From positions 1 to 48,846 of the forward strand of contig DATFVL010000240.1 in NCBI GenBank assembly GCA_035260325.1: 48,846 nucleotides of DNA, read 5' to 3'. The notes under the pieces are model-generated. The model was not told the DNA's origin. It was given only the letters and a program-made list of their open reading frames with translations, and did not search any database. This document shows, one piece after another, positions 12,491-48,846 of the stretch (positions within the stretch are counted from its first letter, which is position 1; each line of letters opens with the position of its first letter). This DNA comes from Candidatus Methylomirabilota bacterium (GTDB lineage Bacteria; Methylomirabilota; Methylomirabilia; Rokubacteriales; CSP1-6). Both the position numbers and the translations under genes were made by a program.

Positions 12491-13716
12491 CGGCCGAGAA
12501 GATCCTCACGAAGAACTTCGACCGCGCCGACTCGCACACGCTCCGGGCGTACCTCGAGACCGGCGGCTACACCGCCTGGCGGAAGGCGCAGGCGATGGAG
12601 CCCGGCGCGATCACCGAGGAGGTCAAGCGCTCGAACCTCCGCGGCCTCGGCGGCGCCGGGTTCCCGACGGGGACCAAGTGGTCGTTCATCCCGAAGAACC
12701 ACCCGGGCCCGGTCTACCTCGTCATCAACGCCGACGAGGGCGAGCCGGGGACGTTCAAGGACCGCTACCTGCTCGAGCGCGACCCGCACGCGCTGCTCGA
12801 GGGCATGCTCATCGCCGCGCGCGCGATCCGCTCGGCGACGGGCTTCGTCTACGTCCGCGGCGAGTACGTGGAGCCCTGGCGGCGCTTCGCGGCCGCCGTC
12901 CGGGAGGCGTACGACGCCGGCTATCTGGGGAAGGGCTTCGACGTCGTGGTGCATCGAGGCGCGGGCGCCTACATCTGTGGTGAAGAGACCGGGCTGATCT
13001 CGTCGCTGGAGGGCAAGAAGGGCTGGCCGAAGCTCAAGCCGCCGTTCCCGGCGATCAAGGGGGCCTTCGGCGCTCCGACGATCGTGAACAACGTGGAGAC
13101 GATCTGCCATGTGCCGCCGATCATCGACCGCGGCGCCGCGTGGTTCGCGTCGCTCGGCACCAAGACCCAGGGCGGCACGCGGATGTACTCGGTCTCGGGA
13201 CGGGTGAAGCGGCCGGGCGTCTACGAGGTGTCGGTGGCGACCACGCTGCGGCAGCTCGTCCACGAGCTGGCCGGCGGTGTCGCCGGCAACGGACGGCTCA
13301 AGGCGGTCGTCCCGGGCGGCTCGTCGGCGGCGATCCTGCGCGCCGACGAGATCGACGTGACGCTCGACGTGGACGGCCTCCGGAACGCGGGGAGCATGGC
13401 GGGCTCGGCAGGGGTCATCGTGATGGACGAGACCGTGTCCATCCCCGAGGCCCTCATGGTGGTCGCGCGCTTCTACGCCCACGAGTCTTGCGGCCAGTGC
13501 ACGCCGTGTCGCGAGTCCACCGGCTGGATCTACAAAATGTGCCGGCGGATCGTCGAGGGCCGCGGCGAGAAGGACGACCTCGACAAGATCCTCGACGTGG
13601 CCAAGCGCGGCGCCGGCACCACGATCTGCGCCTTCTACGACGGCGCCGTCGGCCCGTATATCTCGTACATCGAGAAGTTCCGCGATGAGTTCGAGGCGCT
13701 GATCCCGCATGCCTAA
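12487..13716 (+). CDS. nuoF: NADH-quinone oxidoreductase subunit F
   Basis: 409 residues. The NADH- and FMN-binding subunit. Visible motifs are the FMN/NADH glycine loop G-L-G-G-A-G-F-P-T-G-T-K-W, the A-Y-I-C-G-E-E-T motif followed by S-L-E-G-K-K-G, and the N3 4Fe-4S ligands in S-C-G-Q-C-x2-C with a last Cys in T-T-I-C about 40 residues on. GTG start overlapping the nuoE stop as GTGA. Confidence 0.97.
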   Translation: MTAEKILTKNFDRADSHTLRAYLETGGYTAWRKAQAMEPGAITEEVKRSNLRGLGGAGFPTGTKWSFIPKNHPGPVYLVINADEGEPGTFKDRYLLERDPHALLEGMLIAARAIRSATGFVYVRGEYVEPWRRFAAAVREAYDAGYLGKGFDVVVHRGAGAYICGEETGLISSLEGKKGWPKLKPPFPAIKGAFGAPTIVNNVETICHVPPIIDRGAAWFASLGTKTQGGTRMYSVSGRVKRPGVYEVSVATTLRQLVHELAGGVAGNGRLKAVVPGGSSAAILRADEIDVTLDVDGLRNAGSMAGSAGVIVMDETVSIPEALMVVARFYAHESCGQCTPCRESTGWIYKMCRRIVEGRGEKDDLDKILDVAKRGAGTTICAFYDGAVGPYISYIEKFRDEFEALIPHA

Positions 13717-15346
13717 GCTCACGATCAACGGCACGGAGGTCGTGGTCCCCGCGGGGACCAACCTGATCGAGGCGGCGCGCGCCGTCGGCGTCGAGGTCCC
13801 GCACTACTGCTACCATCCCGGCCTCTCGATCGCCGGCCAGTGCCGGCTCTGCATGGTGGACATCGAGAAGACGCCGCGCCCGACGATCGCGTGCAACACG
13901 CCGGCCGCCGAGGGCATGGCGGTGTGGACCGAGACCGAGCGCGTCAAGGACACGCGCCGGGCGATCATGGAGTTCCACCTGATCAACCACCCGCTCGACT
14001 GCCCCGTGTGCGACCAGGCGGGGGAGTGCTGGCTGCAGATCTACTACATGCAGCACGGCCTCTACGACCCGCGGATGACGGACGAGAAGGTGCACAAGCC
14101 GAAGGCGGTGCCCCTCGGCCCGCACGTCATCCTGGACGCCGAGCGCTGCATCCTCTGCTCCCGCTGCGTGCGCTTCTGCGACGAGATCACCGGCACGGGC
14201 GAGCTCGGCATCTTCCACCGGGGCGACCACTCCGAGATCGGCCTCTTCCCGGGCACGGAGCTCGCCAACGCGTACTCGGCGAACGTCGTGGACATCTGCC
14301 CCGTGGGCGCCCTGACCGACCGCGACTTCCGCTTCGCCGTGCGGGTCTGGTACCTGGATGTCGCGAAGTCCGTCTGCCCCGGCTGCGCGCGCGGGTGCAA
14401 CATCGAGGTGCACGTCAACCGCCGGCGCCCGCACCACAACGAGGGCCGGCGCGTCGCGCGGCTCAAGCCGCGCTTCAACGCCGACGTCAACAAGTGGTGG
14501 ATCTGCGACGCGGGGCGCTACGGGTTCAAGGCCGTGGACGACAAGACGCGGATCGTGGAGCCCTTCCGCCGCGACGGCGGCGCTCCGGCCGACGCGAGCT
14601 GGGACGAGGCGATCGCGGCGCTGGCCGGCGCCCTCGGCCGGTGCGCCCCGGACGAGGTCGGCGTCCTCGCCTCGCCCGGGATGGCCAACGAGGACCTCTT
14701 CGCGCTCCGCCGCGTGCTCGAGCGCCGCGGCATCCGCCGCGTGGCCTTCCACGTGCCGCCGGCCGCGCCGGGCGACCAGGACGACTTCCTGATCCGCGCG
14801 GACAAGAACCCGAACTCGCGCGGGGCCGAGCTCCTGGGCTTCGGCGGTGACGCGGCGGCGATCCTCGGCGCCGCGCGCGCGCGACAGGTGAAGTGCCTCT
14901 GGATCTTCGGCCACGACCTCCTCGCCGCCGGCTGGCCCGAGGCCGACGTGCGCGGCGCGCTCAGCGCGGCCGAGACGGTGATCTGGGTCGGCGCGAACGC
15001 GAACGGCACGAGCGAGTGCGCCCACTGGGTGCTGCCGGCCGCGGCGTGGGTCGAGCGCGAGGGGACGTGGACGAACTTCGAGGGGCGCGTCCAGCGCTTC
15101 CGCCAGGCCGTCGAGCCGCTCGGGCAGGCGCTGCCCGAGTGGGAGATCCTGGGGCGCCTGCTCGAGGCGCTCGGCGCCGGCGCCCGGCCGCCGCGCGCGG
15201 AGCGCTGGTTCCGGGAGCTCGCCGCGGCGGTCCCGGCCTTCGCGGGGCTCACCTACCAGTCGCTCGGCGACGCCGGAACGGCGCTGGGCGCATCTGCGGC
15301 AGGCCACCCACGGTCCGAGCCGGCCTCACGGACCCCGCTACAATGA
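13709..15346 (+). CDS. nuoG: NADH-quinone oxidoreductase subunit G, short form
   Basis: 545 residues, shorter than the common 680-900. It carries 2Fe-2S ligands C-x10-C-x2-C-x13-C (from Cys34), H-x3-C-x2-C-x5-C (H-P-L-D-C-P-V-C), two ferredoxin-type 4Fe-4S sets (C-I-L-C-S-R-C and V-D-I-C-P), and the N7-type C-x2-C-x3-C set (C-P-G-C-A-R-G-C) with a distant Cys. The molybdopterin-like C-terminal domain is reduced. The last 14 residues (G-H-P-R-S-E-P-A-S-R-T-P-L-Q) are encoded by the first copy of a 47-bp direct repeat. Eight-base overlap with nuoF. Confidence 0.95.
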   Translation: MPKLTINGTEVVVPAGTNLIEAARAVGVEVPHYCYHPGLSIAGQCRLCMVDIEKTPRPTIACNTPAAEGMAVWTETERVKDTRRAIMEFHLINHPLDCPVCDQAGECWLQIYYMQHGLYDPRMTDEKVHKPKAVPLGPHVILDAERCILCSRCVRFCDEITGTGELGIFHRGDHSEIGLFPGTELANAYSANVVDICPVGALTDRDFRFAVRVWYLDVAKSVCPGCARGCNIEVHVNRRRPHHNEGRRVARLKPRFNADVNKWWICDAGRYGFKAVDDKTRIVEPFRRDGGAPADASWDEAIAALAGALGRCAPDEVGVLASPGMANEDLFALRRVLERRGIRRVAFHVPPAAPGDQDDFLIRADKNPNSRGAELLGFGGDAAAILGAARARQVKCLWIFGHDLLAAGWPEADVRGALSAAETVIWVGANANGTSECAHWVLPAAAWVEREGTWTNFEGRVQRFRQAVEPLGQALPEWEILGRLLEALGAGARPPRAERWFRELAAAVPAFAGLTYQSLGDAGTALGASAAGHPRSEPASRTPLQ

Positions 15347-15412
15347 CGCCACGCGCGCCTCTCTCAGGCCACCCACGATCCGAGCCGGCCTCGCGGACCC
15401 CGCTACAATGAC
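15301..15412 (+). repeat. 47-bp direct repeat spanning the nuoG-nuoH junction
   Basis: Copies at 15301-15347 and 15366-15412 match at 45 of 47 bases by eye and are 65 bases apart start to start. Each copy contains an imperfect hairpin (a GGTCCG/CGGACC stem in copy 1) and ends in CTACAATGAC. In copy 1, ATGA holds the nuoG stop; in copy 2, the same ATGA holds the nuoH start. TACAAT in each copy also resembles a -10 element. Either a tandem duplication of the original nuoG/nuoH junction or two copies of a mobile intergenic repeat. Confidence 0.8.
15343..15411 (+). CDS. Possible 22-codon bridging mini-ORF between nuoG and nuoH
   Basis: ATG at 15343 overlaps the nuoG stop and its frame runs to TGA at 15409-15411, which overlaps the nuoH ATG. 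Its last 14 residues equal the last 14 of NuoG, because both derive from the repeat. It could keep ribosomes moving from nuoG to nuoH after the duplication. There is no independent evidence that it is translated into a functional peptide. Confidence 0.25.
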   Translation: MTPRAPLSGHPRSEPASRTPLQ

Positions 15413-16502
15413 CCTCGCCACGGACCTCGGGATCGCCTTCGGCCGCGTGGCCTTCGTGATGCTCTTCGTCCTCAACATGGGCGGGCTCCTCGCCTGGGTC
15501 GAACGCAAGCAGTCGGCGATCATGCAGGACCGCATCGGCGCGAACCGGGCGTCGATCCTGGGCTTCCGCGCGCTCGGACTCTTCCACCCGATCGCCGACG
15601 CGATCAAGCTCTTGACGAAGGAGGACTTCCGGCCCGCGCGCGCGGACCGGTTCCTGTTCGGGCTGGCGCCGTTCGTCTCGGTCTTCTTCGGGCTGGTGGC
15701 GTTCGCCTCGATCCCGTTCGGCGACACGCTGCGCGTCGCGGGACGCGAGATCCCGCTCCAGGCGGTGACGCTGAACGTCGGCGTCCTCTACGTGTTCGCG
15801 ATGCTCTCGCTCGGCGTGTACGGCGTCATGATGGCGGGCTGGGCCTCGGCGAACAACTACGCGCTCCTCGGCGGCCAGCGCGCGGCCGCCCTCATGATCT
15901 CGGCGGAGATCGCGATCGGCGCCTCGATCATGGGCGTGATCATGGTCTACGGCTCGCTCGACCTCCAGGACATCGCGCGCGGGCAGGGGCGCCTCCTCTG
16001 GGGGTGGCTCCCGGCCTGGGGCATCGTCACCCAGCCCCTCGGGTTCATCCTGTTCCTGACCGCGGGGATCGCCGCGACCAAGCGGGTGCCCTTCGACACG
16101 CCGGAGGGCGAGTCGGAGATCATCGGGTACTTCATCGAGTACAGCGGGATGAAGGCCGGCATGTTCATGATGGCCGATTTCCTCGAGACGGTGGTCGTCG
16201 CGGGGCTGACGACCGCGCTCTTCCTCGGCGGCTGGCAGGTGCCTTTCCTCTACGCCGAGGGCTTGCGCCTGCCGTGGGGCTTCGCGTGGACGCTGCCCCA
16301 CCTGCTCGTCGTCCTCCTGCAGGTCGGCGCGTTCGTCCTGAAGGTCTGCGCCATCATCTTCGTCATGATGCTGATCCGCTGGACCCTGCCGCGGTTCCGC
16401 TACGATCAGGCGATGCGCCTCGGGTGGCTCGGCCTCTTCCCCCTCTCCGTCGCCAACATCGTGCTGACGGGGCTCTTGCTCCTCGCCTGGGGGGCCCGGT
16501 GA
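15408..16502 (+). CDS. nuoH: NADH-quinone oxidoreductase subunit H
   Basis: 364 residues, about eight membrane helices. Signatures are E-R-K-Q-S-A-I-M-Q-D-R-I-G-A-N-R-A in the first cytoplasmic loop, P-I-A-D-A-I-K-L-L-T-K-E-D, and K-R-V-P-F-D-T-P-E-G-E-S-E-I-I-G-Y followed by E-Y-S-G-M-K. NuoH anchors the hydrophilic arm and lines the quinone chamber. The ATG lies in copy 2 of the direct repeat. No strong ribosome site precedes it, so it probably depends on coupling. Confidence 0.96.
   Translation: MTLATDLGIAFGRVAFVMLFVLNMGGLLAWVERKQSAIMQDRIGANRASILGFRALGLFHPIADAIKLLTKEDFRPARADRFLFGLAPFVSVFFGLVAFASIPFGDTLRVAGREIPLQAVTLNVGVLYVFAMLSLGVYGVMMAGWASANNYALLGGQRAAALMISAEIAIGASIMGVIMVYGSLDLQDIARGQGRLLWGWLPAWGIVTQPLGFILFLTAGIAATKRVPFDTPEGESEIIGYFIEYSGMKAGMFMMADFLETVVVAGLTTALFLGGWQVPFLYAEGLRLPWGFAWTLPHLLVVLLQVGAFVLKVCAIIFVMMLIRWTLPRFRYDQAMRLGWLGLFPLSVANIVLTGLLLLAWGAR

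Positions 16503-48559: not shown

Positions 48560-48846
<287 letters not shown>

Follow-up and report, generated by a model that had tools for sequence, protein, structure and literature searches.

A short dispersed repeat was found in two copies at the junction of nuoG and nuoH in a 48,846-nucleotide stretch of DNA from a Candidatus Methylomirabilota bacterium, analyzed here as a whole and called the window. The repeat recurs through the genome and is absent from most of the matching sites compared in relatives. It lies on gene stops and starts, and its ends show a preferred spacing with an open frame between them. We consider it likely that this is an independent element resembling the MIRUs, the mycobacterial interspersed repetitive units reportedly described by Supply and co-workers in 1997. 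Its two copies would have been inserted at the ATGA shared by nuoG and nuoH, preserving translational coupling between the genes through a mini-ORF that ribosomes are predicted to use.

Repeat copies at the nuoG-nuoH junction

A 47-base core is present twice, at 15300-15346 and 15365-15411, and both copies read CAGGCC...CTACAATGA. They are identical at 45 of 47 bases. Sixty shuffles of positions 14901-15800 (two-base blocks) gave no 47-base match better than 32, compared with 45 for the real pair. The two near-identical copies described in an initial annotation of this DNA are therefore real, but they had been placed one base too far to the right. The distance of 65 bases given there holds as the start-to-start period and not as a gap, since 18 bases lie between the cores. 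Across the 65-nt unit, the copies share 80% identity. The features, all on the + strand, are listed below by window position.

13709-15346, +, nuoG (NADH-quinone oxidoreductase subunit G), from translation and the Pfam families Fer4_Nqo3, Molybdopterin and Fer2_4
15277-15346, +, repeat copy 1, core 15300-15346, matched by a sequence-only model at 15279-15346
15342-15411, +, repeat copy 2, 65-nt type A, ATGACGCC...CTACAATGA, core 15365-15411, model match 15348-15411
15343-15346, +, left ATGA, in which the nuoG stop overlaps the mini-ORF start
15343-15411, +, bridging mini-ORF of 22 codons, MTPRAPLSGHPRSEPASRTPLQ and stop, from translation
15408-15411, +, right ATGA, in which the mini-ORF stop overlaps the nuoH start
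15408-16502, +, nuoH (NADH dehydrogenase subunit H), Pfam NADHdh, E 3.9e-100

The NuoF, NuoG and NuoH Pfam families match the three genes of the locus, and nuoH homologues were found in all 40 genomes searched. As had been annotated, the first ATGA supplies the nuoG stop and the second the nuoH start, and an ORF of 22 codons plus TGA runs from one to the other. A Pfam search with this mini-ORF gave no match. The window also contains the start of a 16S rRNA gene (48560-48846), cut by the contig end.

Repeat copy 1, the left boundary of which is approximate, resembles the ACGGAGCC type at its left end and is without the left ATGA. The C-terminus of NuoG from about 15278 is probably derived from this copy and has the tail ...GHPRSEPASRTPLQ followed by the stop. 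The NuoG tail AAGHPRSEPASRTPLQ is close to a repeat of the mini-ORF tail, and nuoG of the genus-mate stops a few codons past the same GDxG motif as is present here. NuoG at copy 1 is thus of the run-through kind, in which the upstream gene reads in frame into the element. The array test described below missed this case because it checked only the end of the two-copy array.

Dispersal and anatomy of the repeat

A genome-wide search for the unit gave many copies, in agreement with the earlier suggestion of a dispersed repeat. A pattern search allowing up to 3 mismatches found four places in this genome, and BLAST found at least 41 matches (40 of 103 candidates scored). The sequence-only model, built on 39 copies from several genomes, found at least 74 copies in this genome (G000) and at least 124 in the genus-mate (G001), with 150 candidates scored per genome. 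When 40 genomes, its own included, were searched by BLAST, the element was found in 14; these were 14 of the 24 from the same family and none of the 16 from outside it. Among 57 genomes of the family, this one being among them, at least 39 carry the element at E up to 1e-6 and at least 28 hold ten or more copies, with 88 candidates scored per genome in both counts. A degenerate exact pattern, run against 84,980 species that were each represented by one genome, matched 19 stretches, and 19/19 were in MAGs of Candidatus Rokubacteria/Rokuibacteriota. The element was not found by BLAST of plasmids and phages or by a pattern scan of viruses. In G001, arrays L137, L138, L145, L160, L167 and L169 are no more than about 0.7 kb from contig ends and, therefore, such repeats may break assemblies.

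Within the fetched stretches, a profile HMM mapped 158 copies (54 in G000 and 104 in G001), fewer than the 198 found by the model search. They form 125 arrays, of which 99 are single, 19 double and 7 triple. An NTGA stands at the right end of 29/54 copies in G000 and 83/104 in G001, and at the left end, at the 65-nt position, of 14/54 and 77/104, respectively. Both ends carry one in 74 copies (11 in G000 and 63 in G001). Among these 74, 51 are spaced by 65 nt and 53 have a spacing of 2 mod 3; the 21 that are off 2 mod 3 measure 63, 64, 66 or 67 nt. With a spacing of 2 mod 3, the mini-ORF closes on the next start. Fifty of the 74 are open exactly from NTGA to NTGA and 24 fail exact closure; some copies without exact closure stop on a nearby TAA or TAG. 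Among all NTGA pairs 41-130 nt apart (n=120), 81 are 2 mod 3, 26 are 1 and 13 are 0. Sixty-nine copies have a left NTGA together with ATG or GTG on the right. In 60 of them, the frame of the left start ends at most 8 nt from the right start, and the other two frames do so in 7 and 4. Because copies within one type are related, none of these counts is one of independent events.

Three architectures were found: 65 nt, 65 nt in another frame, and 86 nt, each of them 2 mod 3. The core of type A reads ...GHPRSEPASRTPLQ and stop. Type B reads it one frame over, as MSDARLSQATHGSRRPRGPRYQ and stop; its left side has one base fewer and its right side one more, which leaves the total at 65. The long type is 86 nt, for example MNRALRNAAATHLSQGTSRVPPASRPPLQ and stop. 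Eleven of 12 NTGA pairs spaced by 86 nt are open, and 10 of these, all from G000, are of the long type. The other open pair (L157) has the B-type frame, and the pair at L183 is interrupted. A tandem array in G004 (L217) also has copies spaced by 86 nt. Diversity by codon position is weakly biased to the third position (.274/.203/.294 for type A and.119/.095/.143 for type B), which is unconvincing for a selected peptide, and that idea was rejected.

Placement at gene ends and sites without the element

Genes at the arrays were called by open frames and codon-position G+C rather than by annotation. In the 117 arrays of G000 and G001 with enough flank, a gene start was found at the right end in 71, a stop at the left end in 44, and both in 28. 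Shifted controls (n=1107) gave 173, 5 and 0, and strand-flipped controls (n=116) gave 12, 18 and 1. No gene start was called at the right end of 46/117 arrays, and the chance rate of the same test is 173/1107. In 9/121 arrays, the upstream gene reads across the element to a stop at the element's right end, and in 8/121 the downstream coding signal is antisense. Many copies in G000 are in non-coding or antisense contexts and have degenerate ends. Shine-Dalgarno pairing before element-borne starts averaged -3.0 (n=90), compared with -5.4 for 19 starts hand-picked from the ORF list. Such weak pairing is expected if re-initiation supplies the ribosomes and also if the mini-ORF is idle.

At the nuoG-nuoH junction, the copy is absent in 26/26 relatives, and the junction of the genus-mate is a plain ATGA overlap. 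The initial annotation had raised the case of sister genomes that share both copies; none of these 26 does. Sixteen of the 48 arrays of this genome, hand-picked and mostly at gene junctions, were compared with relatives by locating their downstream flanks in G001, G022, G004 and G014. The addition of nuoG-nuoH and L020 brought the sites to 18. Both flanks were located in at least one relative for 16 of these and in none for L008 and L115. The 46 orthologous comparisons over the 16 sites found the element absent in 33 and present in 13; at 15/16 sites, one or more relatives are without it. In 17 of the 33 element-free comparisons, the two flank alignments come within 20 nt of each other; the rest show no element but are not clean empty sites, because other sequence or a diverged flank is there. 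The clearest site is L012, with a single ATGA in G001 and the element between two ATGAs here. At L011 and L014, the relatives' junctions are not simple ATGA overlaps.

Nine of the 16 sites are occupied in another genome also, at times by another type. L013 has type A here and two of type B in G001. At L009, there is a single B here, G022 has two B, G004 has two A-like copies and G001 has none. Since L003, L009 and L013 differ in element type or copy number between genomes, a site preference is suggested. Differing types at one junction suggest recurrent targeting or replacement.

Other repeats were seen near these sites. The nuoG-nuoH junctions of G013, G012 and G010 (L063, L066, L071) contain other G+C-rich sequence with inverted repeats, GAGCG...GCGCAA and then a G-run/C-run palindrome, and similar sequence is present at the L006 site in G004 (L198). 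A third short repeat, like GTGCGAGCCGCAGCCG.AGGCGAG.CGAGC, is at the nuoG-nuoH junction of G018 and G016 (L065, L067) and at the L016 site in G014 (L210). Several repeats may share the nuoG-nuoH junction as a hot spot. In G008 (L064:2678-2744) and G012 (L066:2612-2675), the element lies just downstream of nuoH and not upstream.

Possible origins and comparison with known systems

We propose that two copies of a short mobile repeat entered the overlapping stop and start of nuoG and nuoH. The form of the element would make such an insertion harmless: its right end would rebuild the NTGA overlap, and its typical NTGA-to-NTGA lengths of 65 and 86 nt, both 2 mod 3, would keep the mini-ORF open. A ribosome finishing the upstream gene could then re-start on the mini-ORF and pass to the downstream gene by the 4-nt overlap. 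Alternatively, as at copy 1, the upstream gene would fuse in frame with the element and end on the element's NTGA. The initial annotation had suggested that the mini-ORF keeps coupling. A bridging ORF with ATGA overlaps does recur across the repeat family, and we infer that ribosomes use it and that coupling is kept. The element would either go into NTGA overlaps or survive best there, and it is presumably an enzyme that moves it into NTGA sites.

Survival might by itself explain the pattern, if insertion is near-random, the only copies to persist are those harmlessly oriented at NTGA junctions, and the mini-ORF is a by-product that is not meaningfully translated. The many degenerate copies in non-coding or antisense contexts of G000, the lack of strong peptide selection and the weak Shine-Dalgarno pairing are consistent with this. 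Coupling too predicts the weak pairing, however, and three architectures hold the 2 mod 3 spacing and the open frame, while the changes of type and copy number at L003, L009 and L013 point to site preference. We therefore regard survival by itself as a somewhat doubtful explanation. A regulatory role, with TACAAT as a promoter or an RNA hairpin acting on nuoH and other genes, is unlikely. MIRUs can drive senX3-independent regX3 expression, according to the available part of one report (PMC4213456), and the element does have a TACAAT-like end. Exact TACAAT, noted in the initial annotation as a -10-like box, is present in 27/158 copies and missing in 131/158, and it overlaps the start codon itself (TACAATG), so transcripts would start inside the gene. 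An Rfam search gave no match at the repeat. The hairpin that had also been noted did not gain convincing covariation: the proposed stem is 76.9% paired, compared with 75.7% in shuffles, with one pair changed on both sides, which is not beyond these controls. Slid versions pair in 24-50%, so a weak stem may still exist. RNAalifold found no compensatory pair in its own predicted structure.

The reverse strand of the unit starts with GTAG and then has an imperfect, G+C-rich possible hairpin, as might a REP element mobilized by a RAYT (Y1 transposase). This explanation is very unlikely, since the stem lacks convincing covariation and the RAYT family PF01797, found in 11/57 family genomes, was found in 0/28 of those with ten or more copies, nor was it found in this genome, all within incomplete assemblies. 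In the 11 genomes with PF01797, the element has 0-6 copies. Two other enzyme families showed no association and were rejected. Reverse transcriptase (PF00078) was not found in G000 or G001 and is present in 5/28 genomes with ten or more copies and 20/57 overall; IS110 transposase (PF02371) is present in 19/28 and in 20/29 of the others. The tandem arrangement of the two copies would fit a local duplication or an assembly artefact at nuoG-nuoH alone, but we give this almost no credence. The copies differ (45/47 in the core and 80% over 65 nt), the family occurs in many assemblies, and 26/125 arrays contain two or three copies. A duplication confined to this locus is ruled out because the repeat is dispersed, and as a sole explanation either version is refuted. 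Thus, of the two origins offered in the initial annotation for the separation of nuoG and nuoH, repeat insertion is supported by the junctions without a copy in the 26 relatives, and local duplication is not, given single and multiple copies genome-wide.

Insertion of a coupling-preserving element, therefore, remains our preferred reading. Beyond it, we tentatively suggest, at somewhat short of an even chance, that mobile elements specialized for coupling sites form a class that has arisen repeatedly, with independent origins in Rokubacteria and mycobacteria, that machinery other than RAYT targets NTGA overlaps, and that selection keeps the 2 mod 3 length and the open frame, even switching frame over an unchanged core. 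The many copies, the matching element-free sites and the three length and frame types provide a natural experiment on how far coupling tolerates insertions, and the genomes of the family are a place to search for the mobilizing enzyme.

REP/REPIN sequences are short, have a high copy number and carry GTAG on one strand, and the element shares all three properties. It differs from them in its position on stop and start codons, in a stem without convincing covariation and in that none of the 28 genomes with at least ten copies gave a RAYT match. Rickettsia palindromic elements are short, mobile and palindromic; they lie within genes, where they insert in frame and extend proteins. Repeat copy 1 likewise seems to extend NuoG, but the element has no conserved palindrome and is often at gene junctions. 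The STAR elements of staphylococci are interspersed intergenic direct repeats (PMC3532100). The element is also an interspersed direct repeat, and the part of that source available does not state start/stop bridging for STAR.

The closest likeness is to MIRUs. The available part of a 2025 review describes them as apparently mobile units that are present in many mycobacteria and go into start codons, their internal ORF being coupled to the gene at -4 spacing (PMC12548453). Excerpts of other papers describe 77- and 53-bp units, with several in succession in senX3-regX3 (PMC4213456), and two or three 77-bp repeats there (PMC9392950). One excerpt limits the range to M. leprae and the M. tuberculosis complex (PMC4213456), as opposed to many mycobacteria in the review (PMC12548453). 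By arithmetic, 77 and 53 are both 2 mod 3, as are the 65 and 86 of the element. As far as these partial sources go, both systems are short dispersed repeats at many loci, single or in tandem, and apparently mobile; insertion at start codons and an internal ORF with a 4-nt overlap are shared by many copies of the element, though not all. Unlike in MIRUs, a single core serves several reading frames and unit lengths. The named hosts of the element are also Rokubacteria rather than mycobacteria, and its conserved pattern matched no other organism; the relatives of the present genome place it in Rokubacteria too. Among the open-access literature matches listed, none described such an element in Rokubacteria or a MIRU-like element outside mycobacteria. 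The element would thus be MIRU-like in its working but not a MIRU by host, nor by sequence to the extent that the pattern scan shows. The design, hitherto described for a seemingly unrelated mycobacterial repeat, has apparently evolved independently in Rokubacteria, and an apparently unrelated element with MIRU geometry in another phylum would turn insertion at coupling sites into a general strategy open to comparative tests.
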